Shown in pieces: positions 3,701-43,472 of a DNA stretch of 64,000 nt (position 1 is the stretch's first letter; every line of letters begins with the position of its first letter). The DNA comes from Bolinopsis microptera. Lineage: Eukaryota > Ctenophora > Tentaculata > Lobata > Bolinopsidae. The notes below the pieces were generated by a model, which did not search any database, was not told the origin of the DNA, and saw only the letters and a program-made list of their open reading frames with translations. The stretch lies in NCBI RefSeq assembly GCF_026151205.1, contig NC_087079.1, positions 13,826,445 to 13,890,444 of the forward strand, read 5' to 3'. Position numbers and translations under genes: made by a program.

Positions 3701-5601
3701 ATGGACAATTCGACAGGGATAAGATATTCACACCAGACAAAGAGGGTAAACTTACTTTCCTGCTTAAAGATTTCAAAACAGGAAAACTCGGCAATGATCT
3801 ATTCCTTTGTGAGAACGGCAAATGTATTACTTATGACAAAGTGTGCAACCTGGCTGATGATTGTGGAGATAGTTCAGATGAGTCAGGGTGCACTAACCAC
3901 TTTAAGTGCAATAAATCTGGTGTGTACCTTCCAATCACCCAGAAATGTGATAAAACTGTTCACTGTTCCGATATTTCAGACGAATGCAATGAAAGTTGTG
4001 GACAAGAAATCGTTAACAGCAGTTTCCTTAAGCTTGTTGGTTGGGCCATTGGAGTGTTAGCTCTCATCTTAAATTGTGTATCAGTATTTAAGAACATCTC
4101 TAGTATCAGAGCTACCAAATCAGAAGCTGCACTTCTCAACAAGAGCTTGGTTATTCTAATCAGCATGGGCGACCTCATGATTGGCATCTACCTTACCATG
4201 ATCTCGGTTTACAATACTTACCACAATAGAACGTACTGCTCGATTCAGCTGAACTGGCTTTCTAGTAACATCTGTGTCGCTTTAGGCATAATAAGCACTA
4301 CCGGCTCCCAAGTATCCTTGCTATCCATGACTGCTCTGGGCTTACTGAGAGCTTTCGGTGTATATAACAATTTAGTGATACCTAAGGAAGTCACAAACAA
4401 AAGTTTGATAAAAGTGGTCGTCATATTTTTCACTATCTTGGTGGTATCATCAGTTATTTCTTGGATGCCTTTAGTTGAAGAATTCGAAGATTTCTTTGTA
4501 AATGGTATGAAATACGAAAATTCAAACTCACTGTTTATTGGCTGTCCGGATAAATATGAACACCGAGAAATACTTCAGAAGTATTATGGTAGGATAGCAG
4601 CCAAGGACCTTACTTGGACTCAAATAAAGGTTCTTGTAGACGCTATTTTCTCCAATGACTATGGAGGAATTTCTCGTTACAAACTTTCTTTCTATGGAAA
4701 CGCACCTGTCTGCTTATTTAAGTATTATGTTAAAATGAATGATCCTCAACAGGGTTTTGTTTTCGCGATCATTTGCCTTGATTTTGCGTGTTTTGTAACG
4801 ATAGCAGTTTGTTATGGGGCAATAGTGGCAAAGGCAAAGAAATCTGCAAACAGACTGAAAGGCCTTGCTAACAAAAAAAATGAAATGAACAACCCTACGA
4901 GGAAAGCAAACGCCAAACTGCAAAGAGTTACGCAATGGATTATTTTCACGGATTTTGCATGCTGGGTGCCGTTCATCATTACATGCTGCCTTCACTATGC
5001 TGACATTTTAGATGCAACGCCGTGGTATCCCTTATTTTCAATCCTTGTTTTACCAATTAATTCGGTGATTAACCCTCTTCTATACGACATATCTCTGAGA
5101 ACATCAATAATTTCCATGTTCAACGAACTTAAAGGAAAGGCAGTCGCCTTTTTTCATTCGACAGAAGCAGTAGCAGCAGTTGCCGAGATAGCATCAGCAC
5201 CAGCATCAGCACCAGCATCAGCATCAGCATCAGCATCAGCATCAGCATCAGCATCAGCATCAGCATCAGCATCAGCATCAGCATCAGCATCAGCATCAGC
5301 ATCAGCATCAGCATCAGCATCAGCATCAGCATCAGCATCAGCATCAGCATCAGCATCAGCATCAGCATCAGCATCAGCATCAGCATCAGCATCAGCATCA
5401 GCATCAGCATCAGCATCAGCATCAGCATCAGCCGAAACACCAGTTGAGACAGTCGCAGCAGCAGAAACGGCAGCAGTATCAGAAGAATTAGCAGCAGTAT
5501 CAGAAGAATTAGCAGCAGCAGAAATAGCAGCAGTGGGAGCAGAAACAGCAGCAGTATCAGAAGAATTAGCAGCAGCAGAAACAGCAGCAGTAGCAATATA
5601 A
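781..5601 (+). CDS. LDL-receptor class A repeat GPCR (relaxin-receptor/LGR-like), four exons
   Basis: The exon model is 781-856, 1411-1573, 2036-2160 and 2321-5601. All junctions are GT-AG and phase-consistent, giving 1214 residues. Exon 1 encodes a hydrophobic signal peptide ([18 protein letters not shown]). The ectodomain is Cys-rich with many N-glycosylation sites and about six to eight LDLa-like modules, marked by [11 protein letters not shown] patterns around 2430, 2640, 3040 and 3840. The 7TM domain starts near residue 690. Landmarks are [10 protein letters not shown] in TM2, CWVP in TM6 near residue 1002 and NPLLY (the NPxxY motif) in TM7 near 1039; the usual DRY after TM3 is absent. 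TM2 resembles type C LGR/RXFP receptors, but no leucine-rich repeats were seen. The cytoplasmic tail is a run of Ala-Ser repeats (about residues 1079-1158) followed by an [11 protein letters not shown]-like repeat. It is probably a plasma-membrane receptor; the ligand is unknown. The last exon is the surest part. The exon 1 to exon 2 join is the least sure, since an acceptor at about 1319 has the same phase. Confidence 0.8.
1653..1722 (-). mobile_element. Short TTAC...GTAA element, copy 1
   Basis: A diverged 70-bp copy sharing TTACC-AGGCTATAAT...GGCGGAATGACAG...GCCCAGTAA with the family. The flanks are TGGTTGAT and TGATTGAT, an 8-bp target duplication with one mismatch. Confidence 0.75.
1875..1955 (-). 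mobile_element. Short TTAC...GTAA element, copy 2
   Basis: An 81-bp intact copy starting TTACCTGAGGACCCCAGGC and ending GAGCGCGGCCCAGTAA. TGTCCAGTG is repeated directly on both sides (1866-1874 and 1956-1964), an 8-9 bp target duplication. Confidence 0.85.
5191..5430 (+). repeat. (GCATCA)n hexanucleotide microsatellite inside the GPCR coding tail
   Basis: After a few imperfect units with CCA, an uninterrupted run of about 35 GCATCA units (5221-5430) encodes alternating Ala and Ser. All frames on both strands stay open through it, which creates long meaningless antisense reading frames. GCA-rich sequence continues to about 5700. Confidence 0.95.
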
Positions 5602-9058: not shown

Positions 9059-12000
9059 TATTTGACCAAAACCCATAATCATGGGTAGAGTGGACCGCTG
9101 CCAGTGTCTCTCTTTCCCAAACAAAAGGAAATGATATTAATTTGATTGACCGTTCTTATATTTAATTGTAAAACTAATAATGTTATTTATGTTATTACCT
9201 GTTCTACCTGTAAAAAACAATATGTTGGAGAAACAACTCAACCACTTCATAAAAGAGTCAATGGCCACAGAAATTGTGTCAAAGCCAAATCATCCACATT
9301 TTTATATGAACATTTTAATATTTCTGGTCACGTCTTCTCAGATGCTTCCATACAGATTGTAGATTATGTTGATTCTGACATGTCCACTGATGTCAAAAAT
9401 GATTTACTTCTCCTGGAGGATTACTGGATAGAGAAGCTTGGGACAGCATTCCCTCTTGGTCTTAATGACAAGAAGAAAGGAACGGGCAACATCTCCCAAG
9501 ATCGGGTTATGAATTATTTTAGTGGACAGATTGCTCGATACAAACGTGGCAGAGGGAATGGAAAGAAGAAAGTTCAGCCTAAGAAGTCTCTGGATACCAT
9601 AGAGTCTGATATTAACAGGCTGAAAGATAACATCTCTTCAGAACATTCCATATACAAAACATTAAAATGTTATAGCTTATCAGATTTAGACACTCTCTAC
9701 TCTTTGAGTCAAAATAATTCAGGATTGATTTACAACGTATGTTCCTCTTTCTGTTCAACATTTTCCCCCAAATACCATCAGAACAAATCTGAATCCAGTA
9801 ATAGAGAATTTATAATTGTTCCATTTAATTGCAAATTCATTGATAATCTTAACCTAAAATCTATTTTCTCTGACACTTCAGTCATTGATTTGCTTCCCAT
9901 TTTGATTCAGTCTTTTACACCATTACAGATTTATTATGAGTATAATGATCCTATAAGTCTTTCTATTTGTAACTATGCTTCATTCTTAAAGAAACTTTCT
10001 ATTTCTGATATTAAATCTATTTTAGGTAGTCCATGCGATTGTCACTCCTCCCCTTTCAATTATCCTCCTCATGGACATGTAGTTACTGGTAATTTAGATA
10101 TTGTTGATAATGTTGAACTTAGGGAAGTACTTTCCTACGGTTGTAAATACAGAATTCCCACATTTAAATCTCCAGATGAGATATATATGTCAGTTACCGA
10201 AGCTGTCGATAAATTTATAAAATCAAAAAGTAGAAAGTACTGTCAAAAAGAAGTAAAGTTCAGCGATTGGAAGGAAAAAGTGTTATCAATAGTTTCCAAT
10301 CGTATTGAATATTACAAGAAAAACTTTCCTGAAACATTTGAAATAAAAGAAAACACACTGGAAAAAGATGATGTTAAAAGAAGTCTTAAATTGCTGAAAA
10401 GTAAATACATTATTTGTAGTATCGACAAAGCTTCTGGTAATTTTTCATTTATTTGTAAAAAGTTTTATGTAAAAACTCTTGTCAATGAAATGGGTTTTGA
10501 TCCTAATACTCTAGAATGTATAGGTAATGATACATATAAACCCTGTAGCGAAGACGAGACTCATTATGTCAATAAAATATCTGAGAGTCTAAAGGAGAGA
10601 TTTAATGTACAAGTTGAAGATAAAAACTTGCGACTAGCACGCATCTTCTGGAACCCTAAGCTTCATAAGAACCCTTACAAGGCGAGGTTCATTGCAGGTG
10701 CCCGTTTTTGCGTTACGAAACAACTTAACGTCCAAGTTAACTGTTGTCTGAAACTTTTGAGGAAATACTTCAAGAAATACTGCGAGGCAATCTACAACAA
10801 CAGCGGTATAAACATGTTTTGGAGCATAGATTCCTCAAGTGAATTCCTTGAAGCTATCAAAAATAGCGATGTTTATAATATACAAGTATATGATTTTACT
10901 ACTCTTTATACCAGATTAGACTTGATTGAAGTAGAGAATATGATTAATGAAGTTGTTGATTTAATATTTTCAGACCGTAATAGATATATTTGTATTTCTA
11001 AAAGAGACAGTAATACATGTTTCTTTTCCAATAAAACCTATGATTGTCATGCCTGCTTTAGTCAAGATGACCTAAAAGAGGCTGTTAAATTTATTATTTA
11101 TAACACTTATGTCGTCTTCGGTGGGATTGTATTCATACAAACCAAGGGTATTCCTATGGGTGGAAATTCAAGTTCCCCTATAGCTGATCTCACTGTTGGC
11201 AAAAAGGAATTTAATTATATGAAACGTTTACTTCAGGAAAAGAAAATGGGATTAGCAAAGATATTATCCAATAATAAACGATATGTTGACGATTTATCTA
11301 TTATTAACTACCTTTACTTTCATAAATTGATTAAAGATATTTATCCTAATTCATTGGAGATGGAGCGAGCTGGTTCCAATAATAAAATCATTAACTACCT
11401 TGATTTAAATATTAATATTTCCACAGAAGGACTAGAAATATCAGTGTATAACAAAACTGATGATTTTAATTTTCATGTTGTATCCCTTACATTTCCTCAC
11501 AGTAACATCCCAACCGAGGTTGGCTACAACGTTTTTTCAAGTCAAGTTCTTAGATATGGTAATGTTTGCACTAGATTGGATATCTTTACCTCCCATCTTC
11601 ACAAAATATTCAAAATTCTAATTGATAGAGGATATAGCCGTGATAGACTGATTAAAGGCATTAAACGTTGTCTGAGGAAATATGATAACGTTTTCAGGAA
11701 GTTCGGTATTCTAGATGACCGTAACATTATTAAAGAACTCCCCTGATATCTTTTGATTTATTGAAACACGGGTACTAACTCTGCTAAACTGAACATATTC
11801 TGAATCTTAGGTGAATAAGTGTACAACGTGCTAAACCGAAGTTCAGACTGACCAGTGAAAATGGGCGAGCGTACCAAGTGTCATTTTAATTAGAAGTTTT
11901 AGTCAGTGATTTATTATTGAAGCTTGTAATTACAATATCTAATGCTCCTATAAATACTTTAATTAATTGTTTGTCCCGTTATTCTTTTTCCTTCCTCTTT

Positions 12001-13974: not shown

Positions 13975-14116
13975 GATTAATTAAGATTAATTTCTAACTA
14001 AAGTTACCAGGAGAGTAAAAAAATAATTTTGCTGGCGGTGTCAAAACAGGGCAAGTTTCTATTCGGTACACAATATATTTACAAGTACAAACAGTTGTGT
14101 TATCATAATTCAGAAC

Positions 14117-14193
14117 TTACTGGGCCGCGCTCAGCCTGTCATTCCGCCAAATCTTAATGTTAATGAACATAATAGCCTGGGGTCCTCAGGTAA
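14117..14193 (+). mobile_element. Short TTAC...GTAA element, copy 4
   Basis: A 77-bp copy flanked by the direct repeat TTCAGAAC (14109-14116 and 14194-14201). Confidence 0.9.
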
Positions 14194-14603
14194 TTCAGAA
14201 CCTGCTCACTTCTTAAAACTGAAAACTGATGTCATATTTCCATAGGGACCATTCGTCATCGTGATCATCGTAACGATCAATGGTACGCAATACACTTACA
14301 GTTATTTTAAAAACTGGCAATAAGTATTTTGGTATTTGTATTCCGGCTTGGACAGGTTTATTTTGATTCAGGTTTCTAGGCTCCATAAAAACGTGTACGA
14401 GGTAGCAAGTTCAAATCCAACTTTGGCTAATATATTTAAAAACCAAAGTGCAGCCGTCACTCACCAAAACGTTGTGTGAATGGCAGTGACGCACATTATA
14501 TTAATGAAAATGACACAAGTGCTGGAGTGCATGTGGTAACGTGCTGCACTGAAAAGACCCAAAAGTACCACATCTGAGATCGGAACCTCGTACACTAGTT
14601 TTC

Positions 14604-14818
14604 TTACCTGAGGACCCCAGGCTATTATGTTCATTAACATAGCCTGGTGGGACTGAACCCTCTAATACGCGCAAGTCTCTCTGACGGGCGCGTTTTTGCG
14701 CGTGGAATGCTGAGCGCGCAAAATATATGTTTTGTAATGATAATCGCATATCGCATATCAATATATGTAAATATATATAAAGATTTGGCGGAATGACAGG
14801 CTGAGCGCGGCCCAGTAA
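14604..14818 (-). mobile_element. Long variant of the TTAC...GTAA element, copy 5
   Basis: The ends match the family and the flanks are TAGTTTTC (14596-14603 and 14819-14826). About 135 extra bases sit in the middle, between the TTAACAT and AAAGATTTGG parts. The extra part contains GCGCG-rich and AT-rich blocks. It may be a less deleted progenitor form or a nested insertion. Confidence 0.85.
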
Positions 14819-14865
14819 TAGTTTTCTTGTGCTATGATAGGGATGCCCCATTCACATCTATTTTA

Positions 14866-17700: not shown

Positions 17701-17789
17701 AAACTGTTTCTGATGCCTGAGTTAAATTGTATTCTGCAAAGAGATATCTGATATCATGCACCCAGATTTAACGCTCTAGGAGTAGGACC

Positions 17790-17859
17790 ATGTTACGAAT
17801 AACTACATCGAGTAGGAAAGCGGAATCAAATCAGACAACAGATCTGCTTGAGGCGATAC
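17790..17859 (+). CDS. Candidate alternative first coding exon A of twinfilin
   Basis: An ATG opens MLRITTSSRKAESNQTTDLL and the exon ends at a GTAAGA donor after 70 bases, leaving one base of a codon. That phase matches the second exon of the twinfilin gene at 28294. An acceptor-like CGCTCTAG lies 11 bases upstream of the ATG. The MLR start is shared with candidates B and C. The case rests on phase, donor and the MLR start. It is weaker than for exons C-E because the RPQVQ motif is absent. Confidence 0.4.
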
Positions 17860-18780
17860 GTAAGATGAGAGTGGATATAGGCATTTGTTTTTTGTGTTAT
17901 TCAAACAATACTACATAATATGTGAAGCACTTAAATCCACTCCGAAGATCTTGTTTTAATTTTGTTGGAGTAGTGATTGTATGAAGCTGGGATTTTATTT
18001 ATTCTGCGACCTTCTTTTGACTTCATTAATTCTATTGTTCACGATGAAGTCAAACATTTTGGATTGTTATACTTATAATTAAAGTTATAGTCTTAAGCAT
18101 TATGATATTTCAAAAGAACCAGTACTACCGCATTGCTAAGAAATAATGACATTGGAACCGCATCAAAATATTTCAATAAAGACCAAAGCTGATGCAGCTG
18201 CAGTATATAATATATATTAACACCTTGCCCGAGCGTCTAAATCGAGGTTTTGGCATAACAACTTTTTGTTTTTGCTTACTCTAAACTATTGTCAACATAC
18301 AATGTGTCGAAAGTTTTCTCTCACAGATTTCAGTCTGAATATACTGTTTCTTCGGTATTCACCACAAATATTATCACCCCCTGTGCGTAAGCATGCGCAG
18401 TATCAGAACGTCAATCCAAAACCTAATAACCCATCTCAGTGACGAGAACCTTTAATCTTTATACATTCGCCTTACATGAGAACACATGATTATAAACCTA
18501 ACAAAAACCAAGAGATTACCGGTGGACTCGGTGGAGTAAAGGAATGTACTACTACTACTCATATTATTTGAAGTAAGTTTGATCCTATTCATTACACCAT
18601 CTCTATCGTTGATGACAATTAAATGTTCTGATCTGTGGATAAACAATTATTGAGTCGATCCAATAGTACTGACTGGAAAATGCCGCTGAGATGCTAGTGG
18701 TGCTGCTGCCGAGTGCAAACGACCCCTGCAGGGGTACAGTGCTATAATGCCGAATAATTTGTAACGTGATAAAGAATTAT

Positions 18781-18859
18781 TTACCTGAGGACCCCAGGCT
18801 ATAATGTTCATAAACGAATAGAGATTTGTCGGAATTACAGGCTGAGCGCCACCCAGTAA
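18781..18859 (-). mobile_element. Short TTAC...GTAA element, copy 7
   Basis: A 79-bp, slightly diverged copy flanked by AGAATTAT on both sides (18773-18780 and 18860-18867). Confidence 0.85.
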
Positions 18860-19695
18860 AGAATTATAGGCAACTTAATAAACATTTTTGGATGTTGGTA
18901 CCGTAAGTAATTTGCTGAAAAGATATGATTTAACTGGTATGTGGTATAACTTTTCCAAACCTGGCATTGATTGCGATTACTCCAATCTTGTCAGAAAAAT
19001 CATTTTAAGATAACATAAAATCGTACGTACCCGGTACCACTACCTCAGATATTTCGTACATTTTAATCGTGCTTTCTCGACCTGCAGCCTGCAGGTACTA
19101 TTCTATCTGATTTTAGTGTGATAGCTTGACCAGGTACATGATTTTGTCGAGTTCCAGGCACTTTCACACCTCCAACTTGGCTGAATGAGATAGACGTTGG
19201 GTTACCTCAAAACGAATCGTCAGGGAATCTTTACTTTTGTCTTGACACGATTTCTAGGGGTTCTTTTGCAATCTGACTTCTGTACTCAGACATTTTTTAG
19301 TTCTTTCCAAGGGCAAAAACCTAAAGATAAAACGTTTTCTGCTATTAAAACGTTTTTCAGCTATCCACGCGGTGCCTGACAGTGACTGCCACTCATTTGC
19401 GTTCAACATCATTGCAAGGTAGATATTTCATTCTAATTGAACGATGTTTAATTAGAATAAAATATTTATCTTACAATGAACATAATGCTTTTCAGTTGTA
19501 TAGCTTCTAAACTTTGAATCTCAATCTTATTCTTTTACTAGAACATTGAGTGCTTATCATCTAATTGGATAGATTCGGTTTATAATTCCAGTTTGGGTTT
19601 AAGACCGAATACCAATTGATGTGTGCATACCCAAGTTAATCGCTTTACTCTGCTTTTAGTGAGGATCACTAGAAAGAGGACCACTAGAAAAAGCA

Positions 19696-19792
19696 ATGCT
19701 AAGGAATCCGAGAGAAAAAAAGGAAACATGTAATAACCATAACATATTAGCAGAAACTCTGAAAGCGTGCGGATATGATAACCTCAATCACA
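19696..19792 (+). CDS. Candidate alternative first coding exon B of twinfilin
   Basis: A 97-base exon encodes MLRNPREKKETCNNHNILAE and ends ..NLNH at a GTAAGT donor in phase 1. It ends on an NH-like pair at the donor, as exons C and D do, and a good acceptor (CTCTGCTTTTAG) lies about 40 bases upstream of its ATG. It would join in frame to the exon at 28294. Confidence 0.5.
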
Positions 19793-19799
19793 GTAAGTC

Positions 19800-19900
19800 T
19801 TAGTACTATTTATCATTACCTTAGTACTATTTATCATTACCTATTTATCATTACCTATTTATCATTACCTATATTAGTACTATTTATCATTACCTTAATT
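19800..19900. repeat. Tandem repeat of TATTTATCATTACC
   Basis: Six units of a 14-bp motif, some preceded by TTAGTAC, directly after candidate exon B. Confidence 0.85.
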
Positions 19901-22900
19901 GATTAAAAACAAGATTACTGTAAAGTATGCATGAATTTTGTTATATGAAGTAAAATAATAAATTGATTTGCTTTCCATCTTTCTGATTTTATGGATTGAC
20001 ATTCTAAGAAGATTGCTATTTCTCATATGGCCGGGTTCTTGTGTGATATCAATATACAATTATAATCTTCTGACCATTACTAATGACTATGGTATTATCA
20101 ACTTCTCGAAATTAAAAGCAAGTTTTTGACTAATAGTCTGTTCACTGATTCTGCAGATTATACGTTACAGACCCAATTATACTGTAAAACAGTAACTAAC
20201 ATATTACTGACAGATGACGGATTCGAGAGGCTGGTTTGGAGAGGTTGAGACAAAAAAGAAGAAAGAAATGTCGTTAAGGTGTTTTTTTAAAAAAAGGATT
20301 CACAATACCTAAATACTTTAATATAGGCCAAGATACATGTTTCTCAACTGATCTTTAGACAGTGTAAAAAATCTCCGAATTCTGTTATCGTCCCCAACAA
20401 AATAGAATGCAGACATCAAAAATATATAAAACGGTCGAGGAATTATAATCATGACAAATTTCCAAACTGCAACATCCTTATCGCTTGATGTACAGATAAC
20501 TACAAAACATGGGCTAGGTCACGTACGGGTGAATAAACACCCAGGTTTTGGGTACAGTTTGTATTTTAGTATTTTCACCTACTACTGCAGACTGCTAAAG
20601 ATTGCATGTCGACACTCCTGGTTGTGTTAATTCTGGGTTACCCTGTGATCCTCACGTAGAAAGTCTAAAAAGGACAGTTTTCTGCCAGAAATTCATTTTG
20701 AGATGCAATCCACTTCACTGTATCACTACACGTACGCCATACCATTTTATTGCACGGTTTGTGTAGAGGAAAAGAATTTTCCTCTCAACTTATAACAGCT
20801 TTAAGCTGTTAATCTGATTTATGTTTATTGCATGGCGGATCTATTGCATGGCAGGTTTTTATAAAGCTACCACGTTTGTTGTCTGGCCGTTTGTTTCACA
20901 GTGAGTGTGACGACATCCTGAAATTTATGCTTATTGTTCATACTTTAATCGTTATTTCATTTCACCAAACATAACTTGATACAACCATACGTTGAATTTT
21001 TTCTAATTTTCACTCCATCGGGCATTTTTAACTAATAATAACCAATTTAGATGATGTTTACCGCTGATAATAATAATATGACGATATTTATAAATTATTA
21101 ATGGGAGGAGTTATGAGCGTGGTATAAATTGCATCTGATGAATAACATGATCCGATTAATTTTCCCGAGGCCAGGCCTGAGCTTAAAATTGAATCACACG
21201 TAAACTATGGTTTCAATATTTCTTGTTCGAATGTTTTCCACCTCTTGCCAAGTTGTTGTAATAATGTTGTTTAAGTATTTTCTAACTGCTACCATCAATC
21301 ACTTGTCTGTCATATTATAAGAAAACATGATTATTGAAAACAATGTGCGTGTCTTCAAAGATCATTTCTAAAAGACCATCCCATATTATTTGTTAGCTTA
21401 TCTCATCAGTCATATGATTATGTGTATTTGAAGCACGTTTTACCGTTTACGCAGTTTCTCGAAAGGTAATTTAGGTCATTTCTTTTTTCGTATAAATACG
21501 ATTCACGGATAAATTTTATCTAATAAGGCTTTGATTTGAATTTCCACTTCCACATAGTAACGTTATCATGGACATAAAGAGATATAAATTCTAACACTTT
21601 TCTCCCGATTCCAAAATTCAACACCTGTCAACTCTTTGCTAATGCTCATTTTGAATTAAAGCTATTGCAACAGCTATTTGATATTAGAGGTGAGTATCCA
21701 AAAGTCGAGCGTACGTCGGTTGTCATCGCAATGTCACAAATAGCTCAATATAAGGTAGCGTACGTGTCGAGGATAAGACTCACTGACAAGATGGTAGTAT
21801 GCTAAAAAGATTGGCGCTTCGTGGATATCGATCAGCTCAGTCAGCTTGATATTGCCCTGGCTGGGATCCGAAGCAGGTCTGAAATAGTTAAATGTATCGG
21901 TGCAACCTACGTTTCAGCACAATTTGCAGTCTGGTTTATACGTCTAGCGGACCATTTGAAAGGCTTCCAACTTCATACTCGTATTTAGCAGTCAAAACAA
22001 CAGCTTGAGCTCTCGCGACCAGTCAACTTCAGGTTTGTAAAATGCAGACTAGGTAGGAATTATTTCTTACGCATTTTCTAAAACCCAATGTTTGTAGGTA
22101 GTTGAGAGTGCCGTGTTGACTGTTGACTGGACGCGTGGTTGTTTGACGTTTCCAAGACACGTACCAGTTTTGTCACTTAAAAACCACCGGTTTCTTTCAC
22201 AGCCACCATTCATGTCACTATCGGCTGTTATATTTGAACGTATAATGCCATTTCAAAACGCCGGCCATTTAGATCTTTTTTGCTTACATAATTTGACATA
22301 AAATCCAGAGTTTCCTCCAGCTTCACAACTTTCATATCACTTTCAGCTACTTATATTACTTAACATAAAAGTTCTAAAAGTTATATTATTGAAACCCCTT
22401 AATTGTGAGATGTCATGTTGTAACTTGTTCAGATGACCAACTTGGACTTCACCAAGACATCATACCCTTGTACCACGTTAAAACAATTTTAACTCTCGGT
22501 CCAATTAATCGAACGTCAGTTCATAGTTAGGAACACTGTTAGAATAGTTGTTGAAAACAAACTGATAGTTCCAGTTTTAACACCATGTGACATAAAAGGG
22601 AACACAGCCTGGACCAAAGTAGCTCACACTTTCTATATAAGTAGCTCTGTTTAAGAAGGTTTACTGGTTTGGACCAGGTGTATCAAGGCGGCCAACACGC
22701 ACGTTCAAGGTATCTGGTGTGTGTGCAGTGCCAATATTATACCGGCTGTCCTGTGGTGTTTTTGGCGCCCATAATATGATAGTGTTCCTGCTTTTCTTTC
22801 AACTGGCCAAATGACCTCCATCATGCAATAAACAGCAATACTTGGCAATAACGGCCCCTGAATAATAATGATTCATTCTGCTGTACATGGATACCTAATC

Positions 22901-23879
22901 AAAATTCCACTTATCAGAACTCTGATCCTTTTTATTTGATTCACATCCTAACTTCAGGAGTTCCCATTTTTTTGCAAGAATGCACTCTTTTGTCTTTTTG
23001 ACACATTTTTGTGTCGTACTGATTAATGCCGATCTGTCAAGCATTCTTGCTGTTTATAAGACATCGGTGACATGGCACATGCCAAATGCTCTGATGATCC
23101 CAACCAGCGGAGAGAAAAAGTATAAGGATTACTTCTAGTCATGGTGACCCATGTATTTCAAAGAAGGAACTTGCGGAATGCGGATCATATTGCCATTGGT
23201 TTCCCAATTTCATAATTTTGTCCAATTTAAGTTGCCACCAAGTGTCATGCACCTATGAATTGATCAGAATCAAAAATCGTTTGTGGCAATCATTCGAATC
23301 AAGGGGAAATTACTTTATAGTGGTAATATTCACGAAATATCAAGTATAGTCATAACATCGCAATTTACTATGCTTTATCACTGTTATAAACTTAACTATT
23401 TGCACAACTAAACCTTATCAGATTTCTCCTTTTTCAGTAGGTTAACTTCATTTTGCCCCCTTGATAAGACAAACGCTATGTTCAGCTGAGAGTTTCAGTG
23501 CGCCTACCTTGTCACCGGTGGCAACACCCAGCAAAACTGGACAGTAACGTAAGCTAGGCATGTTGTTGTGTTGGTTTAACTACAAGTTAGGTTTCAGTTG
23601 TTCGAATTATACTAGCTGTTACAAGCAACACTGCAGTGCCGCTTTCGCGGCGGGAATACAAAGAAGTTGGAAAATATAGTGTTGTTATTTTATATAAAAA
23701 TATAGTGTTGTTATTTATTTATTTTATATCAGCCGGCTATTTCAGTTGCTGATTTTAACTTTTTAATCCGATCAAGGCAGATGAGTTTTTGTTCGTTATT
23801 ACGGCTTCTTCAAAAAGGCTTGTTTTGAATTTTTCGATTTAAAGGTTGAATATTAAAATGGAGTGATTGTAATAAATGC
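19901..23879. other. Non-coding sequence inside the twinfilin 5' region
   Basis: About 4 kb of AT-rich sequence with no recognisable exon. It contains a palindrome TAACAGCTTTAAGCTGTTA (about 20793-20811) and short duplications (ATAGTGTTGTTATTT near 23680-23715). If exons A and B belong to twinfilin, this is intron and alternative promoter DNA. Confidence 0.35.
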
Positions 23880-24638
23880 AGTAAATTTTTGAAATTCGTA
23901 AACGGTACCAGCTTTTGATATTTTTGTCATTCTTTAACTTCGACACTTGGTTTTTCTTCTGCTCCGAAACTAGCACGAAATTTATAGACGCTTTAAGACC
24001 AGTTTACAACCCTCAAAATTTTCAAAGCAGCGTAATTTTAATGACCAAGCACCAGAACCGAAAAACGATGAATCGATTTTTTGTAGCAATCGACCGATTT
24101 ACTTTATCATCAGCATTTTTATCAAACGAACATAATCTCAAATCATTTGTTATATACAAAAGTGTTGAAAATTTAAAACCCGAAGAATAATTGTCATCAC
24201 CTTCACGTTAATTATCATCCCTAACATTTATAGCTCCGGAAACCTCAGAATCGAACATAAGTGCTCAAATTCCAGGACCAGTACCACACAATGATCGCTC
24301 CAACTGGTCGAAATTTACAAACGAATCATAATTCTTCTAATGAACCGTCGCGCTGCCTTGTTGACAGTCAGAAGCTATTTAGGATCCCATTTTCAGTATG
24401 AACACTGAATACCTTGCCACACCACACACAAATACACAAATATCAACGTTTGTTTACCACCAGTGCATTTTCATCTTGTTGTTTTGCTCCATTGTTAATT
24501 TGTTTGATATGTTTTGATTTTCATAAATAATACGAAGTACTTAATGCTTGAAATCGGTGAAGACCCTTTGCCTTGACATCAGATATAAAATGTGAGGTTT
24601 AAATCAGTAAACTAAAACCACCTAGGCCTAGAAAGATC

Positions 24639-24744
24639 ATGCTCAGAAGACCACAGGTTCAAGAAAAGGTAAAAGCGTTTAATGGCCTAACAGAATCGCT
24701 GCATCTAACTGACTTTGGGTTTGGTGGCGAAATCATTAACCATC
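24639..24744 (+). CDS. Candidate alternative first coding exon C of twinfilin
   Basis: The exon encodes MLRRPQVQEKVKAFNGL and ends ..GEIINH at a GTAAGT donor, phase 1, 106 bases. RRPQVQ is also found in the proximal first exon (27724), and the phase fits the common exon at 28294. It lies in the first unit of the tandem duplication. A transcript starting here would give twinfilin a different N-terminus. Confidence 0.7.
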
Positions 24745-24861
24745 GTAAGTTTTCGATAAGCTCTGCTATATTTTGTTAGCATTTCTGCTAATGAAGTTGA
24801 TAAAATTGTTTATCCTCTGCGAGGCGTCGCATCCTCCAGTATCCAACTAAAAGTAAGATTT

Positions 24862-24946
24862 GTTTGACACGTGACAACGATTATAGGATATTATTGGTGA
24901 TCGCTGCTGGAAGCTGATGGGCTAGTCGAGCTGTCACGCGTCAGAA
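24862..24946. mobile_element. Short CACGTG-ended foldback, copy 1
   Basis: About 85 bp beginning TTTGACACGTGACA and ending TGTCACGCGTCAGAA, an inverted pair. The interior (GCTGGAAGCTGATGGGCT) matches the copy at 49421-49501. Confidence 0.65.
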
Positions 24947-26221
24947 AGGACGCGATCTCTTTTCAATCACTTCTTCGAGTTCTACAAGAAGGTGCTATCA
25001 GAGGTGCTAGAAGTTTCTGTACGTCTTTGACAACTCTTTCAGTCTTTGATCATGCATAAGTGCTCTTCATGTCTTAAAGTTAAACGCTATTCGTCATTAA
25101 AATCATTTTAATTATTTCAGTTACTTTTGCAACCTTAGATGTTTCAATTGCATATAGGCGCTATTTAATTCTAACCAAGTCTGCATAACATATTATTTTC
25201 TTCGAACTTGTCTGTTTCCTTTGCAACATTTTCGTAATAATATTAATCGCTGACCATAGCGAGTATGCCGAATATCAATATGTAGACAATAAAAAAGCCA
25301 GGTTTTCTACAACATCCGCATCAACATTCAACATCACAGCTTTTTACATGTCACACAATTTCAACTGTTACCAACAGTCTTCATAGTGCTTAAGGCATAA
25401 AACGTTCGTTTATCTAATGTAATCTGGGAAAGCCAAAGCCAATGAGACCATAATCATATCACACGTACGGATTATGGTCGGAAAAAATGGCCATAGCAGA
25501 GGAAAAACATTTAACAGTTTGCATTTAGTCCAGTATATTATTGTGTTCGGTACCAACCATGATGAACCAACGATATTTTTTCATTTTTAAAAATTCGACA
25601 CTTTCACTTTCGATTTTTCCACTACTCAGGAACTAACACAATATCTACAAAGCTTTTAAAACAGTTTACAACACTCAAATTTGTTAAAGCCACTGAATTT
25701 TAACTAATTTGTAACCAAAAGGAAACCTTAAAGTTTGAAAGACTTCTACAGTAAACGTTAATATTTATCAAACCCATGTTGTTGTGGGAGATGGGCCCAC
25801 TTAGGTGCATCCCCGAAAACCTTAAAGTATGTATTGCATCCAGTGAATGGCAAAACTCAACTTCAAGATTAATTATCAAACTTGAGATAAATTTCTCAGT
25901 AACCCCAGTTTTAAAGAAAACTCAAAGTCAAAATATTCGATCAGGACCACTATAATATAATCACTGATCGATAATTACAAACGAATCTTATAGCGAAAAA
26001 TTGCTCTTGTTGACAGTCAGTCCTCAGGATTAGCTATTGGTGAACACCAACTTTTGATTACCGATAGAGTTTTGCCTACTTGTTTTGCTTCACTGTAAAT
26101 GAACTTGTCGTGAATCAATGTTGATGCATAATATTTGATATATAATGGGGACATTTTGCTAAGATATCAGATAATGCAGTTTAAATTTGAAAAAACTTAA
26201 ACCACCTAGAAAAGTAAAAAG

Positions 26222-26327
26222 ATGCTCAAAAGACCACAGGTTCAGGAAAAGGTACAAGCATTTAATGGCCTCTCAGAATTGCTGTCATTGACTGACTTTG
26301 GGTTTGGTAGCGATTTCATAAATCATA
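26222..26327 (+). CDS. Candidate alternative first coding exon D of twinfilin
   Basis: The exon is 106 bases, the same length as exon C. It encodes MLKRPQVQEKVQAFNGL and ends ..DFINH at GTAAGT in phase 1. It is the counterpart of exon C in the second duplication unit. Most changes between C and D keep the reading frame and the length, which suggests coding constraint. Confidence 0.7.
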
Positions 26328-27513
26328 GTAAGTTTTAGATGAGCCATTATGTGAGTAATCCAGTGTTTGTGATGGTGGAAGGGATGCAATTCTAACAGCG
26401 TCAAAGTCAAAGTAATTTGTTAGATGACTTCAAACTGCACTTTCATTTTAACCGCACGTAAAAGCATTCTCAGATCATTGATTTATTTCCATCGTCCGAT
26501 ATTCTATCAATTTTGATTTTGATTTTTCGATCTCTCAATTTCATGGATTGATTCACTCTTATATTAAGATCGGTAACTTATAATCTTTGTATGAACAGTT
26601 AATTTTTCTGTCATCATTTATATATTTCATTGCTATTAGGGCACTATTTAATTACCAATTCTGTAACTTTCCTCGAACCAAATTTCATATTCCACCCGCA
26701 GTATGTGACTATTGGTAGTATTCGCAATGAACGCTACCACAACACCGAATATGCCATCAACCAAGCAGGTCAAGCTTTTATTTCAAGCTTTATTTCCCCC
26801 TAAATCCGCTTCAACACCGCTGCGATTAACGTGTCACTTAATTTCAACAGTTGCCTACAGTCTACAGAAGCTGTACTATAAGGTGTGAAATTTTCGTTTC
26901 TCTAGAAACGTACTACTGACTACTAGGACAATGAGGCCATATTTCATACGGTCTACAAAAAACACGGCCCGGCCATTTCACCGGGAAGTTGGTTAGCTCT
27001 CCCAATTTATCCACGCGTAAGAATAATGCAGGAGGCGACAATTGAGTCCAATTAAAGTTTAAAAGTGAAATTTAGTGGCAGGACGATGGCATTGCTTTTA
27101 AAACAGTTCCTGGTACATTCGTCTATGAAAGGGAGCCATTCGACAAAAGGTGAACACTCACCACCGAATAATATCAAGCCACCAACCAGGTGATGACAAT
27201 TCGACAATTTACCCGACAAAAAGAACTACTTAAATAAAAATTTGCGGTAAGTGTTTGGTAGTGACGCTGTTAAAGATTGGCAAGCTGGCAATTTAATGTT
27301 CCTCAAACATGTGATGAACGTAATTTCTGACATATGACTGAGAAGAGAAGAAAGGCCACATTATTAACTGTTAAACATATGTGTGGAGAGAAAGATAGAG
27401 AGAGAATGAGGGCCGGGGAAGTGTACATAACTGCCGTACTACTGCAATATAAATTGCATTAAATACGTGTTGAGACACACGCACTTATTATAGTACAACT
27501 CTTGCTTCAGCTC

Positions 27514-27520
27514 TATATAA
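27514..27520 (+). promoter_or_regulatory. TATA box upstream of the proximal twinfilin first exon
   Basis: TATATAA followed by GTATATAGG lies about 200 bases before the ATG at 27724. It is a plausible core promoter for the isoform starting there. Confidence 0.4.
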
Positions 27521-27723
27521 GTATATAGGCGTGTACATTGTGTGTCGTTGTTGTTGCGTTGTTGAGGGAGTTGAGAGCTGGAGCTACCGATGGAATGTCA
27601 GTAGAGTAATATACTGTATCATCCGAGCTAACGTTGGGATCCACTCCGCGCAAACACAGTCTCTGTCGATTCTTCTTTTTTCCGTGTCAGACTCTCTAAA
27701 TTTGTCGCTCTTCTCTTATGACC

Positions 27724-30700
27724 ATGGCGTCGGTTGCGAGACGGCCTCAGGTCCAGCAAAAGGCTGGGCTCTTTGAGGCATACCAACTAGGGGGCGAAGT
27801 CCCGGAATTACGAACAGTCGACTCGTCGACTGCAGGTAACTATGTGCGATAAATATGAATGATACTGTTCAGACTTACATTTATTCAAGATCCCTGAGTT
27901 GTTCACGGAGTATTAACGTACGGCTTCAACAGATACCTGTGCGTATATTTCCCTTTCATTTGTGACAGCATAAGTCTAATGTTATATGCACTTCGTGTAA
28001 TTGTTGTAGAGCAAGTAGAAATTACTACTGACATCGCTATTCGTTTTCACAGAGTGTCCGTTTAGCTTAAGTTTGACCTTTCTTTCCGTCACCAGCTGAG
28101 GCCGTATAATCAAATCTACATGGTTGTCGGAGTGAGCTGTCCTCTACGACCTTTATGTAATCCTATTGTTTAATGTTTAATTCTAGTGAAGCTGTCAAGT
28201 GATTTAATGTAAAAAGCTTATCAAACTCTATACGACTAGGCTTTCCTTTTTAAAGTAACCGCTGTAAATTGTGTTGAAACAGATTCGTTTCAGATGCTAC
28301 AGAAAATCTGGGAAATGATAATCCAAATAAACTCGGATCCCAGGCTGTCAAAGGTAATAAATCTACAAAGGAATCTTTAAACCGCCAGAAAAACTTTCGG
28401 ATATATCATATATTCATCATTCACTTTGTAAACTTTAGGTTTTTACCATAGACTGTAAGTGTAAGCGCACCGCTTTTAATTTGATTGCCAAAGTTATGAG
28501 ACCTCGGAAAGACCGTCCTTAAAATTTTATGTTTTTCAGCCCATCCCTCCTTGATAGAGTACATCACCAGCAACTACTATGATCGGGTTATGAAGGTCGT
28601 CATCAAAGACGGTAAGTTTCCTTTAGTACACATTATATTTTTAGAACTGACTTTATTAATGAAAACATTAAATATGTTCCTTACAGCGTTATTGCAATAT
28701 TTATTAAAACTATTTGCCTTGTGGGTTTTGCTAATAAGATGAGTTTTTGAAGCTTCTCAATGTTTTTGGTATAATCCCTGATCATTCCTGTTAAAATCCC
28801 TAACACACTATCTCCTTTCTCTCTAGGATATTTCTGTTTAGCATTTTGCCTGGGGCCTGACCAGAGTTGGGAGGATGACTACGATGATATGGTATTGGAA
28901 CTGCTAGATGATGACGAAAGTTGTTTTATAATCTACAGACTAGACGAGGCACGTGGAAGACATTTTGAACACGTGCTGATCACATGGCAACCGGAAGATG
29001 CTCCCGTAAGTTATTTACATCCAGATATTCAGTTACTTTCTAAACCAACTAGCTTCACTTACTTCTGGAATTCAGACTATTTATCACAATTTTAAACAAG
29101 ACTTTTGAGCCGATTTGTAAACTTAGTGACCTTATAATTCCTCTCCTAGGTGTCTGACAGGGCTGCATACACCACATCTAAATCAAACCTAATCGAGCTC
29201 TACGAAGAAGGGACATTCACTTACCGCCTAACCGGAGCAAATGACGTGAGTAAGTGGTTTCTTGGTGAATCAGATGTTAATAACTCGCGCAGCAATATCA
29301 TGCTTTTTACGGTTCCCAATGTTCGTATACTGTCAATACACGCAATTTTTAAACTCTTAGTTTAAGCCGTGAATGTTTTATAGTGTGACGTAGATTTCAA
29401 CGCTTTGAAATACGTGATGATGTCTGAGGGAGAGATCGAACCACTTAGCAAGTATGAAGAACTCAAACGAGAGGCCGTTTCAGAAGAGGTACGCGGTTTT
29501 TTATATACGATTTTTATTTTTAATATTAAACTTAAAGTGATAATAGGTATCTCACTGTCACGCGATTGGCAGCTTCAGAGAACAGGTGCTTCACTGCTGC
29601 AACCAGGCAACTACCTTCCTTCACTGCTGTTATCACGTGATTAATCGTGTGATACAACCATCAAATAATGGCAGCTGAGTTATAGTGGGTAGGTGAGAAT
29701 GCTGGTTTTAGATTTTATCAATATCCGGGAACGTTTGGTTATTGACTTTATAAGCGGCTGAATGTTCAAAGAACCTAGCTTCAGATATATGAAGTCTTTG
29801 TGCCTTGGCATCAATTTAAGATCAATCCACTGTAAGAGACAGGTACAAGATTTAGAGAACTTTACCATATAACCAAGCCATAAGCTGAACCAAGCATATT
29901 GTAGAAAATAAAGTTTGGCACTTTTTAAAAGAATTTGGTGACAATATCTTCAGCTTTGTACACTCATGCAGGTCTGTCAGCAGCTGCGACCCACGACCGG
30001 ACTAATTCAACCCAACGTTCAACACTTGTTCTTCTCAACAGAGTTTGAATGTCATGACTAATTGGCCACGCCGCATGCATGAGCATATTAGTACACATGT
30101 AAAAGTTACTGAAACCATTGACCTAGCACGACTTGTAAATTTATTATCTGTCTTTTTGTGAAGAAAATAGCCCTGGGCGAAGTAAAATAGTGAAAATACA
30201 TTTTGCAACACTTAATATCTTATGTTAGCAGTTCAAATACAATTTTGCAAACACTCTCCTTGGTGGAGCAACAAAGAACATTCCAGAGCAAGCCTTGTAT
30301 ATTTCTGAGTTCCTCTAAGTTCATGTTGGAAGTCTACATAAGCTGCCTAGTGCCTATTGAATACTTATTGAATATTGGTGACAGAGTTCCCCCACTATCT
30401 GGATCATTGGGTCAGGCTGTATCATGAGATTCTCCGTGATCACAGCAGAGTCGTGCTTGTTCACTGTTCAGTGGCCCACTCCCACAGATCTGTATTTCCA
30501 AACAGATGAGAAACTTGCCGGCACCGACAGTCACAGAGACAAAGGTAATTACGAAGGCCAATTTGCACATGCCTCCTCACGTTTTGACATGGCGACGGGT
30601 CACAATGGTACAGGCGCACGACTGTTCACATGCCGACTTTCTCACGACTTTCTAACTGCCGACTTTCTTAAAGAACTTTTTAAGGGTTTTTATATTCAGC

Positions 30701-33411
30701 CGGCATTTCATCGCATAATTTTTAACATGCCGCCACTTCATATCACTCATTTTTAATGGATTCTTTCTGCAAACATCCATCTCACAGCTTATTATATTTC
30801 AGAACTCACAACTGCTAGTAATTATAATAGGTATAATTCCCTGTTTTTATCTTCATCAGGTTTTACTTTGATTTACAAATAAACATGAACATGATGAGCG
30901 TTAATTATTTCAGGAGGTCGCCCGAAGCAGACAGATGAAGAAGATTCCAGATATAGATATGCAAGTTGATGATGATGCTATAAAAGAGATCAATAAATTT
31001 GTGAAAGGTTTCATCAACTTCGTACAATTCGTGAGTAAAATATTTGTCTTTAAAATGTGTACTTAATAAGATTAACATAAAACAATTAAAATCTTAGTTA
31101 TTCAGTTCGAGTTCATTTTTGGACTGTTACGATACGTTTAATGACTTGCTTTCAGAATCCAGATTCGGTGTACCGAGATTTGTGAAAGTGGCACTATCCA
31201 TATTTCACAGAGTTGTACCATATATTTGATTCACGGCTGTTCTGCATTGTTTTAGACAGTTCCGAGAAACAAAGCTATTAAAAGCAGCAATTTAAATTTG
31301 TATTCTTGGTTCTTTAAAGTATAAGGTTTCCACAAAAATAGCCAAGATTCCTTTCATGGTTTAAATGTTGAACCTAGATATAATATCTATACTGGGCGTA
31401 TTGTTAATTCGTAGAATTACCCTGCATATTGGAATGTGTAGAAACGAACCAGCAGTCCCATTTCTACTAAACACAAAGTTTTCAAAACCAATTGTGGTAG
31501 AGTGTATCACGTGATTAGAACTCAGTACTTTCTAGGCTACCTTCAGAATGACAGAATCAGGTACCGAATGTGATTATACTTACTCACCCTTTGACCTTTG
31601 TAGTGTAAACAGGCTTACTTGGTCAAGCTGTGCTGAATGTCGTCTATTCGTTGAAAGGTGGCTTCTCAGTCGCTTGGAATAGGTAAATGTGATAATGCCT
31701 TTTTTATTGGCTGAGTATATTGGCTGTTATGTTAGCAAATAATATCAATAATATTTGACTGATAATATCAACATCATTTAAGTCACATACTGGAATTTGT
31801 TAAGTGCGTAAAAGACTAAAATACATGATATTCAATAAATAAGAAATACCTTATTATATTAGTTGTTAATCACACGGCCACTGCCGGAAATAATTTCCCC
31901 GTACACGATCTGCAATACTTTTAGTTGTGAAACGTTAACCATTTATAAATTTAGCCGTTGACAAATGCAAACATTTGACCACGTGCGAAAGTTTCAACGT
32001 TCAAATAAATAACAAATGCTTTTACATTTTGGGACGATCATCAGGCGACTTGCTTATGCTACACGTTGCATATCCCTTTTGTGCCATGAGGCTACCAATC
32101 TAAATTCTGATTTTCAATTTTCGTTTTTTTATATTAATACAATTTTTAATATTTCGTTTTTAATGTATGCAGTATTTATGTGATGGCATCATATTGACAT
32201 TTTAAGTCACAAGTTTTAAAACCTGGTTTTTTAGTTTTTTGACACTATTTATTAGTATTTTCTCAATATAAATTTGACGTTTTACTAAAATGTGTCAACA
32301 ACAAATTTGGTGGTAAACAATTTTTAACCGAACAAAAAATTGATTTTATAACCAATAAGGTACATATCTTAACTGCCAACCCAATCAGGGTATTGACAAC
32401 AAAAAAGAGGTGATCCGCTGCTCTGACAGCAGAAACGTGAATGTCGATGAATTACCCGACAAGATGCCAGAAGCAGTTCCACGATTTAACCTCTACAGAT
32501 ACAGTCACGTTAAAGACGGCAAATTTACCGAATTTGTGCCAGGTAAACTAAATCCCCAATATTTCTACGCAATAGTTTCCACGCCGTCAACTTGAAACGG
32601 TTTAGTTTTTCAATCCTTAATTCCGAAAGAGACTCTCTTAGAAACAGGCTTTCTAAGAAAAATAGAACAACAGTCTGCACCAAAAGTAAGATCCAAACAA
32701 CAGAAGGTTCTCGAACCGACTATATTTAACTTTTACCCTCCATTTACACTTCAGTGTTTATCTACTACGTTCCGGAGGAGGGAACAGCCAAATCTAAGAG
32801 TCTGTACCCCTGTGCAATCGACGGATTCTTGAAGAAGCTGCAAAGTTATGGAGCAGACATAAAGCTTCGGGTAAGTAAAATGCACGGCAGAGTGCAGAAA
32901 GGTTGACCCGCACCTTATATTAATACTTTGAAGGTTGCCTAATGTGATGGCTGGTCAGTGGTCATGTTATAAGTAGCTGGTTTCTGGTTGGATGACACAG
33001 AGGCCTGTACGTAACTCCCACGGTTCAGCTAGTGTTTTATATACTGTAGTCTCCACAACCAACCTCCTGGACTTTCTTAAGAATAAGATTGAACCTCCTG
33101 GACTTTCTTAAGAATAAGATTGGACTTTCTTAAGAATAAGATTGGGTTCGCAAGAAGCCGGCTAATATAATTCACAAAATTGCAGTAACCATCGCTACAG
33201 GCTCTGACCTGGAACTAACCTAACTACTACAGGATTTAACATGTACACCTTTCAGCTGGAGTTCTCAGATCTACACGACATGACGGAGGGAGTTCTGTAC
33301 GAGCTGATATACCCACCAGACCGGTCGGAGCTGGAGAAGTCATTCCGAGAGATCAAACCTAAGAAACACGCTGGCAAGCGGGGCGGCTGGGTTAAAGTCC
33401 TACCCGTTTAA
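27724..33411 (+). CDS. TWF: Twinfilin, actin-monomer-binding protein (ten exons in this isoform)
   Basis: Exons are 27724-27835, 28294-28353, 28540-28611, 28827-29005, 29150-29245, 29384-29488, 30914-31030, 32389-32542, 32755-32870 and 33256-33411. All have GT-AG borders and the phases agree, giving 388 residues (the family is usually about 350). Two ADF-homology domains are seen. The first starts at LIEYITSNYYDRVMKVVIKDG and runs through QSWEDDYDDMVLELLDD. The second starts at AIKEINKFVKGFINFVQF and runs through RFNLYRYSHVKDGKF and SLYPCAIDGFLKKLQ. The end has the family's EVHP-like segment (YELIYPPDRSELE) and a basic tail (KPKKHAGKRGG). Twinfilin binds actin monomers and capping protein in the cytoplasm and limits filament growth. 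The first exon (MASVARRPQVQQKAGLFEAY) adds an N-terminal extension that is not typical of the family. Confidence 0.88.
29489..30913 (+). other. Large twinfilin intron
   Basis: A 1.4-kb intron. It includes a TATCACGTGATTAATCGTGTGATA palindrome-like region (about 29630-29653) and short reading frames without recognisable content. Confidence 0.6.
31031..32388 (+). other. Twinfilin intron between exons 7 and 8
   Basis: A 1.36-kb AT-rich intron. No nested gene or repeat family is recognised. Confidence 0.6.
33057..33146. repeat. Tandem repeat in the last twinfilin intron
   Basis: The unit AACCTCCTGGACTTTCTTAA... is present twice in full, and its GGACTTTCTTAAGAATAAGATT part three times in all. 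Confidence 0.85.
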
Positions 33412-41721: not shown

Positions 41722-43472
41722 TTACTTCAACTTTACTTTCTCCCTATTTTCATTGATTGCTTTAGATTGTTTCTGATAAGCAAGATGAGGAGAATTTACA
41801 AGTTGAGTTGGTAACGTAACCATGGAAGAAACTGAAAGCTCATAGAGCTGCAAAAACATAGACTTATTAGTATTATTTATAAAAATAAAAGCAGTCCCAA
41901 TCTTGTTCTCACTCAGTGCCCTCCCAATCTGATGTACATACTGATCTGTATTTGGGGGCAAATCAAAGAGTATAACATGGCTAACAGACGGCATGTTAAT
42001 TCCTCTGCCGAGGATATTTGTGCTGACCAACACAGGATACCTCCCTTCTTCCAACTCTGATATTATCTTAGTCCTCGCTTCTTGTGTCTTGTCACCATGA
42101 ATAACAGCACACAGTATATCCTTGTTTATTAGATAGTCAGCTAGCAGAAGTGCACCAAGTTTGGACTCAACAAACACCAATACAGGAGGTTTGTTAAATC
42201 TCTTGTCTTGTAAAATTGATATGAGCTTTTTCTTTTTGCAATCATTTTCAACCCATAAAATCATCTGTTTTACTTTCTCAGTAGGATTGCTAGGTTTACC
42301 CACATTAATTTGAACTGGGTGATATAGAAGTTGCTTAGCATATCTTCTACTTTCCTCAGATATTGTAGCACTGAACATTAGGGTCTGATGACGGGACGGA
42401 AGGAGCCTCATTACAGATTTAACTTGTTCGTGAAAGGAAGCATCCAGCAAAACATCAAACTCATCTAAAACCACCGTGAAGCACTGAGATAAATCTGGGG
42501 ATAGTTCTAGTAGTCTTCCTGGAGTGCAAATGATAATCTGAATATTTGACTCTAATCGGTAGTTCTGTTGTGCAGTTGACAGACCACCCACAACTAGACC
42601 AGTTCTCATATTACGTATACCCTTACACAACTCTTTTGTCATTTTCTCAACCTGAATTGCCATATCCCTTGTAGGTAGAATGACCAAACCAAAAACATGA
42701 TCAGTTGATATTTTATCAACCCAGAACTGTATTCGATGGATCATGGGTATCAGATATGCACCAGTTTTACCTGTTCCTGTACCTGAACACACCAACACAT
42801 CACTACCATCAAGAACTATTGGAATGACTTGAGATTGAACAGCAGTTGGAATCTTATATCCACTATTATTCATATTTTGAAAGAGTGTTTCAATGAGATA
42901 AACTTGTTTAAAGTCAAGAATTGCCGGAGTAGCGTCACCATCCAGGACATGAACTTCAAGAGTTTTCCTAATTTCCTGATGCTGAACTATTGACAGTAGT
43001 GTGATTTCAGAGTCTAGTTTAAGTTGAGGAGACTGCAAGACCTTATCTGGAGTCAGTACAATGTCTTTACATTCAATGCTACAAACTTTACCAACATCCA
43101 AAACAATTTCAATCCCAAATCTTGAACAAATGATACATTTAGCTTCACTAGGCAATGCTGGTCGTTGTTCAGCTGAGTAAGTAGTGACTTTATCAATCTT
43201 AACAATTCTTGTAGTCTTGCTAATAAGATCTGCTTGTAGAGCCGACTGCTGACACTTTCCTTGATTGGTTTCTTTACATTCTGTACTGCATATGTCGACA
43301 TTGTACATGTCACAGATGTAAGCACCATACCTCCACAGACAACACACACTGGTTCTCCTGAAAGTGCTTTGCGCTGATTGCAACTGAGCTCAACTACTGG
43401 AGAGTCAGAGTCACTGGAGGAATCAGAGTTGTTTCTCCTCCGTTTGGAAGAATGATATTCAGTATCTTCCAT
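41722..43472 (-). CDS. DDX59: DDX59-like DEAD-box RNA helicase with HIT zinc finger (one frameshift)
   Basis: A single-exon gene. The frame from the ATG at 43472 breaks near 43330-43334, and one added base restores a 583-residue protein. The N-terminus is Ser/Asp-rich with a basic patch. A HIT-type zinc finger (CVVCG...ICDMYNVDICSTECKE) spans the break. A second, weaker copy follows (KCIICSRFG...VCSIECKD). The helicase core has a Q-motif-like PTAVQSQVIP, motif I SGTGTGKTGAY, Ia PTRDMAIQ, Ib GGLS and TPGRLLEL, motif II LDEFDVLLD, motif III SATI and motif VI HQIGRALSENKIG. Motif II (DEFD instead of DEAD) and motif VI (no second Arg) are unusual. DDX59 is an RNA helicase needed for normal development in vertebrates. 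An acceptor-like TTTTGTTATATAG abuts the ATG. Confidence 0.88.

Follow-up and report, generated by a model that had tools for sequence, protein, structure and literature searches.

Twinfilin is a conserved protein that regulates the ends of actin filaments. A single twinfilin protein is typical of lower eukaryotes, and in mouse a single twinfilin-2 gene uses alternative promoters to make Twf2a and Twf2b, of which Twf2b is found only in heart and skeletal muscle; the Twf2b transcript skips exon 1, and the two proteins are identical from residue 9 (Twf2a) or residue 7 (Twf2b) onwards (PMC3158069). Clusters of variable first exons are also known from UGT1, GCNT2 and the clustered protocadherins (PMC1885805, PMC3325998), and every first exon of UGT1 has a promoter of its own in front of it (PMC3325998). 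Here we report on a stretch of 64,000 nucleotides from the ctenophore Bolinopsis microptera (contig NC_087079.1, positions 13,826,445 to 13,890,444; below, "the window", with position 1 as its first letter). In our opinion, it is likely that the twinfilin gene in this window has an upstream array of mutually exclusive first coding exons, called A to E in this article, that feed a set of common exons.

An initial annotation, made from the letters of the window, had proposed five short exons that begin with ATG and end at a GT donor with one base of a codon left over. All five are there as proposed (Table 1), and each can be joined in frame to the exon at 28294, giving open frames of 374-388 residues (A 374, B 383, C 386, D 386 and E 388). 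The observations on the encoded peptides are also correct: RPQVQ(E/Q)K is present in C, D and E, the start is MLR in A, B and C and MLK in D, and B, C and D end with NH at a GTAAGT donor. When scored with a matrix built from the 8 donors of the common exons, the donors of A-E lie within the top 1-6% of GTs. Exon E, the closest of the five to the common exons, has a further in-frame ATG at 27718.

The common exons, nine in number and with AG/GT borders, run from 28294 to 33411 on the + strand, and each of the five candidates joins into an uninterrupted frame through this one downstream set in the same phase. Judging from sequence comparison, the downstream gene is twinfilin. The best PDB match of its protein in a phmmer search is Twinfilin-1 (7ccc_B, 4.7e-36), with residues 70-380 of the protein aligned to residues 23-334 of Twinfilin-1, and the nine top-ranked of the 30 PDB sequences matched are twinfilins, counting 1m4j_A, which is listed as A6 gene product and which we take to be a twinfilin. 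The Pfam family PF00241 (ADF-H) matches the whole protein at 2.4e-27 in 2 stretches (stretches were counted at an E-value limit of 1). About 47 N-terminal residues have no counterpart in 7ccc_B, and by position they come from the first exon together with a portion of exon 28294-28353. In the tail, K378 and R379 align with K332 and R333 of 7ccc_B. If the numbering of 7ccc_B equals that of mouse, as we suppose, these are the basic pair that was changed in the mouse mutant mTwf1-11 and is required for binding of capping protein (PMC6249002); the tail would then be a predicted capping-protein-binding tail in which the basic pair is conserved. A search of the whole genome with the twinfilin protein returned 11 matches, 10 of them at the twinfilin locus and the remaining one a weak ADF-H match (E 0.04), and so revealed no second twinfilin locus or retrocopy.

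Exons C and D lie in two tandem units. Six pairs of repeats keep their order across the two units, with a spacing of 1483-1662, and the similarity of the unit DNA scores 138 vs at most 21.5 among 40 shuffles. The exons themselves are identical at 88 of 106 bases (83%). The intron past the exon retains 55 of 128 (43%, with 16 of the first 20 intron bases identical), the sequence upstream is 56-65% identical with gaps, and far upstream 196 of 353 positions agree. By Fisher's test the identity of the exon differs from that of the intron at 3e-10 and from that of the far upstream region at 2e-7. As read from this comparison, C and D are an old tandem duplication of one ancestral exon, in units of about 1.5-1.7 kb. 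Fourteen codons differ between them, 6 silently, and the ATG, the phase and the GTAAGT donor are retained. The nonsynonymous divergence (dN) is 0.122 and the synonymous divergence (dS) 0.456, a ratio of about 0.27 (NG86, 35 codons, 17 changes); the contrast between the two is modest, with a Fisher value of 0.011 or 0.053 depending on rounding. Taken together, at least C and D look to be under constraint. None of the unit pairs A-C, A-D, A-E, B-C, B-D, B-E and C-E has DNA similarity above that of its own shuffles.

Exons E and B are related to C and D at the level of the peptide, B more distantly. In the alignment of E with C, in which RRPQVQ(Q/E)K is shared, 0 of 2000 shuffles were as good, and for E with D the count was 8 of 2000; B gave 0 of 2000 with C and again with D. 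We also scanned for exons running from an ATG to a phase 1 donor over 18-42 codons and scored these candidates against C/D. Among the 44 candidates on both strands of the window, E (40.5, falling to 39.5 if the upstream ATG is used) and B (38.0) come directly after C and D themselves, and the best of the others reaches 15.5. In a null set of 133 candidates, taken from 200 kb of the same contig in 20 pieces of 10 kb, none reached 38 and the best scored 14.5; in simulated sequence none of 1340 did, with a best score of 28.5. Chance frames as the origin of B-E are rejected by these three scans. C, D, E and B would thus make several homologous first exons in a row. A dispersed repeat was likewise considered as a source of the exons and rejected, on the strength of searches that pick up close copies. 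No further close DNA copies of A, B or the C/D exons were found in the genome by searches that are blind to divergence of the B-vs-C level: a search with D recovered C and missed B and E, and one with B recovered B alone.

The candidate with the score of 15.5, at 18302 (+) between A and B, is an open phase 1 frame starting MCRKFSLTDFS... with a GTAAGC donor, which was absent from the initial annotation. It scores above all 133 null candidates and under the simulated maximum, and it does not have the start signature described next.

By alignment exon A is indistinguishable from chance. It scores 10.5 against C/D, a value reached by 10 of the 133 null candidates and 80 of the 1340 simulated ones, and an open phase 1 exon with a GTAAG donor is itself expected 0.6 times per 11.6 kb in simulation; in the null stretches each strand has 0.8 such exons per 10 kb. 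What connects A with the others is a start signature, which we define as CTAG ending 7-13 nt before ATG-Leu-Arg/Lys, combined with a phase 1 donor. Four of the 44 window candidates carry it, exactly A, B, C and D, and none of the 133 null candidates from the same contig does. In a simulation of 15 Mb with 3959 candidates, 48 had the Leu-Arg/Lys start, 62 had CTAG and 1 had both, which corresponds to 0.0008 per 11.6 kb. A longer form, ACCAC(C)TAG, precedes each of B, C and D; of 6280 null ATGs, 1 has it in the 30 nt upstream. We put the chances that A belongs to the array at about even.

It could be argued that only E is used, and that A-D are either chance frames or duplicated first exons in decay. 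Indeed, by alignment A is unrelated and B weakly related to the rest, and the dN/dS contrast rests on 17 changes. On the other hand, in C and D the frame, the ATG, the donor and most of the peptide survive between flanks that are now 43-65% identical, and the signature is seen four times vs the 0.0008 expected, so we regard this as improbable. A further alternative assigns A-D, as first exons, to one or several other genes nested in the same region, with no part in twinfilin. Nested intronic genes are frequent in another ctenophore, Hormiphora, for which 2357 in 1654 host genes are reported (PMC8527503). Exons A-D are 2.0 to 10.4 kb away from the twinfilin exons, and agreement of phase alone is a one-in-three chance for each exon. 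Yet RPQVQ(E/Q)K is common to C, D and E, and E is the exon nearest to the twinfilin body; we would give nested genes a slimmer chance still than the use of E only.

Several points weigh against an array of alternative first exons and have to be kept in mind. What links each exon to 28294 is its phase and its proximity, and since the first three common exons all begin in phase 1, a splice to 28540 or 28827 would keep the frame as well. In the alignment test exon A fails, being equalled by 46-64 of the 2000 shuffles, according to the partner. The alignment of B with E is not significant (354 of 2000 shuffles as good), and in the shuffle comparison the flanks of B do not resemble the units of C or D at the DNA level. 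The start signature was defined post hoc, after the exons had been seen. Finally, the acceptor scores upstream of the ATGs are matched by 27% to 68% of random places.

Weighing these points, we believe that an array is the probable interpretation where C, D, E and B are concerned. The claim of the initial annotation that alternative first exons feed twinfilin accounts for C, D and E better than any rival, fits B well and is plausible for A. One ancestral exon gave rise to C and D by the old tandem duplication, with B as a distant relative and A as a possible member. We infer that the exons are transcribed, that each is spliced to 28294, that they exclude one another, and that their use is regulated and functional. 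Each mRNA would start with one first exon spliced in phase 1 to exon 28294-28353. The resulting twinfilins would be the same from 28294 on and would differ in N-terminal extensions of 23-37 residues before the first ADF-H domain. The start of transcription would decide which exon is used, possibly with a spliced leader being added at an AG just upstream of each ATG. The most likely effect would concern where and when twinfilin is made, or where it is localised, and would not touch the actin-binding domains, which all forms would share.

With regard to how an exon is selected, the initial annotation suggested N-termini that are switched by separate promoters. Separate promoters may be the mechanism, as in mouse Twf2 and UGT1, though the word TATAWA does little to single them out. 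Within 300 nt upstream it occurs at -55 for C, at -83 for D and at -202 to -276 for E, and neither A nor B has it; from arbitrary positions it is found at 20-120 nt in 631 of 5240 cases (12%).

The genome of this animal appears to contain spliced-leader genes. In Hormiphora a spliced leader ending in AATTTGAG has 718 genomic copies (PMC8527503). A first search with 24 nt of that leader at up to 3 mismatches gave 3 matches vs 2 in the reversed control, which is not decisive alone. Longer similarity around these matches led to a related leader sequence in B. microptera, and a degenerate pattern of it, again at up to 3 mismatches, has 397 + 474 = 871 matches in the genome and 0 in the reversed control. 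Among the matches listed, most read CAACACTACTATATAACAAATAATTTGAG followed by GT, so ending GAGGT. They lie at contig C3:13511056-13533420 and at other places across the genome, and some copies on C3 stand in tandem with a repeat length of about 591 bp. The 871 matches look like a spliced-leader gene family of the ctenophore type. The leader end with its donor, AATTTGAGGT, does not occur in the window.

Given the spliced-leader genes of the host, the exons may instead serve as alternative trans-splice acceptors within longer transcripts. A single long transcript, or a few of them, would then carry the array, and the leader would be joined at the CTAG AG before one ATG, with the acceptor and not a promoter picking the N-terminus; as a mechanism, this is compatible with alternative first exons. 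Apart from the leader genes themselves, it is favoured by the CTAG that ends 7-13 nt before the ATG in A-D and by the rarity of ACCAC(C)TAG before null ATGs. It also fits that an AG ends 0-4 nt before the ATG in 5 of 7 guessed start codons of other genes in the window, 3 of which (43472, 40631 and 61883, all on the - strand) are acceptor-like by eye. What speaks against it is that no pyrimidine tract accompanies the AGs of C and D, which reach only the 86-88th percentile of all AGs by a matrix of 9 acceptors, that 61% (C) and 68% (D) of random places can match them within 150 nt, and that E has no CTAG, its best AG being 33 nt upstream. TATA-like words, common by chance as they are, also lie within 100 nt upstream of C and D. 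In our judgement, selection by trans-splicing is somewhat less probable than not. The more specific idea that the array is a trans-splicing switch, whose duplicated coding first exons evolved in a ctenophore as alternative spliced-leader acceptors, is more doubtful again.

As to the other guessed starts, the contexts TATAG, TTTTCAG or TTTCTTTCAG precede those at 43472, 40631 and 61883, as trans-splice acceptors would. These starts were guessed for a gene next to the DEAD-box helicase frame, for another next to the KH-domain frame and for a third, unnamed gene.

Elsewhere in the window, a long open frame at 9146-11743 (+) has a GIY-YIG-like start (NVIYVITCSTCKKQYVGETTQPLHKRVNGHRN), and presumably belongs to a Penelope-like retroelement. 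Peptide-like stretches are repeated in several frames at about 14027-14851 and at 18650-18874, probably as an interspersed repeat; the copy at 18650-18874 falls between exons A and B. Another long frame, at 2191-5598 (+), matches LDL-receptor class A (2.1e-11, 4 stretches) and has a long simple repeat near its end.

Table 1. Features of the twinfilin locus, in positions of the window
Feature	Position	Strand	Remarks
Candidate first coding exon A	17790..17859	+	MLRITTSSRKAESNQTTDLLEAI + 1 base; 70 nt; donor GTAAGA
First coding exon B	19696..19792	+	MLRNPREKKETCNNHNILAETLKACGYDNLNH + 1 base; 97 nt; donor GTAAGT
First coding exon C	24639..24744	+	MLRRPQVQEKVKAFNGLTESLHLTDFGFGGEIINH + 1 base; 106 nt; donor GTAAGT
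First coding exon D	26222..26327	+	MLKRPQVQEKVQAFNGLSELLSLTDFGFGSDFINH + 1 base; 106 nt; donor GTAAGT
First coding exon E	27724..27835	+	MASVARRPQVQQKAGLFEAYQLGGEVPELRTVDSSTA + 1 base; 112 nt; donor GTAACT
CTAG element upstream of A	17776..17779	+	10 nt before ATG
CTAG element upstream of B	19684..19687	+	within ACCACTAG
Two CTAG elements upstream of C	24622..24631	+	first within ACCACCTAG
CTAG element upstream of D	26206..26209	+	within ACCACCTAG
Tandem duplication unit 1, around exon C	23917..25383 (approximate limits)	+	repeat families D1, D3, D5, D7, D8, D10
Tandem duplication unit 2, around exon D	25572..26866 (approximate limits)	+	same repeat families as unit 1
First common exon	28294..28353	+	60 nt, phase 1 at both ends; in-frame skipping possible
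Common exon, first ADF-H domain begins	28540..28611	+	72 nt, phase 1 at both ends; in-frame skipping possible
Common exon, ADF-H domain 1	28827..29005	+	gene model, genome protein search, phmmer alignment
Common exon, ADF-H domain 1	29150..29245	+	gene model, phmmer alignment
Common exon, end of domain 1 and linker	29384..29488	+	gene model, phmmer alignment
Common exon, linker, then first part of ADF-H domain 2	30914..31030	+	gene model, phmmer, Pfam
Common exon, ADF-H domain 2	32389..32542	+	gene model, Pfam
Common exon, ADF-H domain 2	32755..32870	+	gene model, Pfam
Last coding exon, tail KPKKHAGKRG and stop	33256..33411	+	gene model, phmmer alignment

Should the array be real and conserved, the ctenophore lineage would have diversified its control of actin by duplication of exons within a gene and not by duplication of the gene. 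It would also be a clean test case for whether spliced-leader trans-splicing can choose among alternative coding first exons. In the literature that we searched, which included few subscription papers, we found no description of a twinfilin array of this kind and no paper on spliced-leader trans-splicing that selects alternative N-terminal first exons. The initial annotation regarded the arrangement as unknown for twinfilin. This needs to be narrowed, since alternative starts are known from mouse Twf2a and Twf2b; the number of exons, their tandem origin and their length are new.

The first exons of UGT1 encode a large part of the protein, and the Dscam genes of chelicerates encode cell-surface receptors and have larger cassettes than the twinfilin array. 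In UGT1 there is a promoter for each exon, whereas here the exons would encode short N-terminal extensions in a host with spliced-leader genes. Chelicerate Dscam is, as here, an invertebrate gene with tandemly arrayed 5' cassettes (PMC4835542). The leader of Hormiphora has the same ending, AATTTGAG, and hundreds of genomic copies, as in B. microptera, and the available text of that account of trans-splicing draws no tie to the choice of a coding first exon (PMC8527503). The closest case is mouse Twf2, where, like here, a single twinfilin gene gives proteins that differ at the N-terminus only (PMC3158069). Mouse Twf2 has two forms, while here there are four or five exons, two of them tandem-duplicated and each coding for 23-37 residues, and the part of the mouse report available to us describes no duplicated homologous exons (PMC3158069). 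Alternative twinfilin starts and arrays of first exons were thus already known; what this locus would add is their combination in an actin regulator of a ctenophore, with short homologous N-terminal cassettes.

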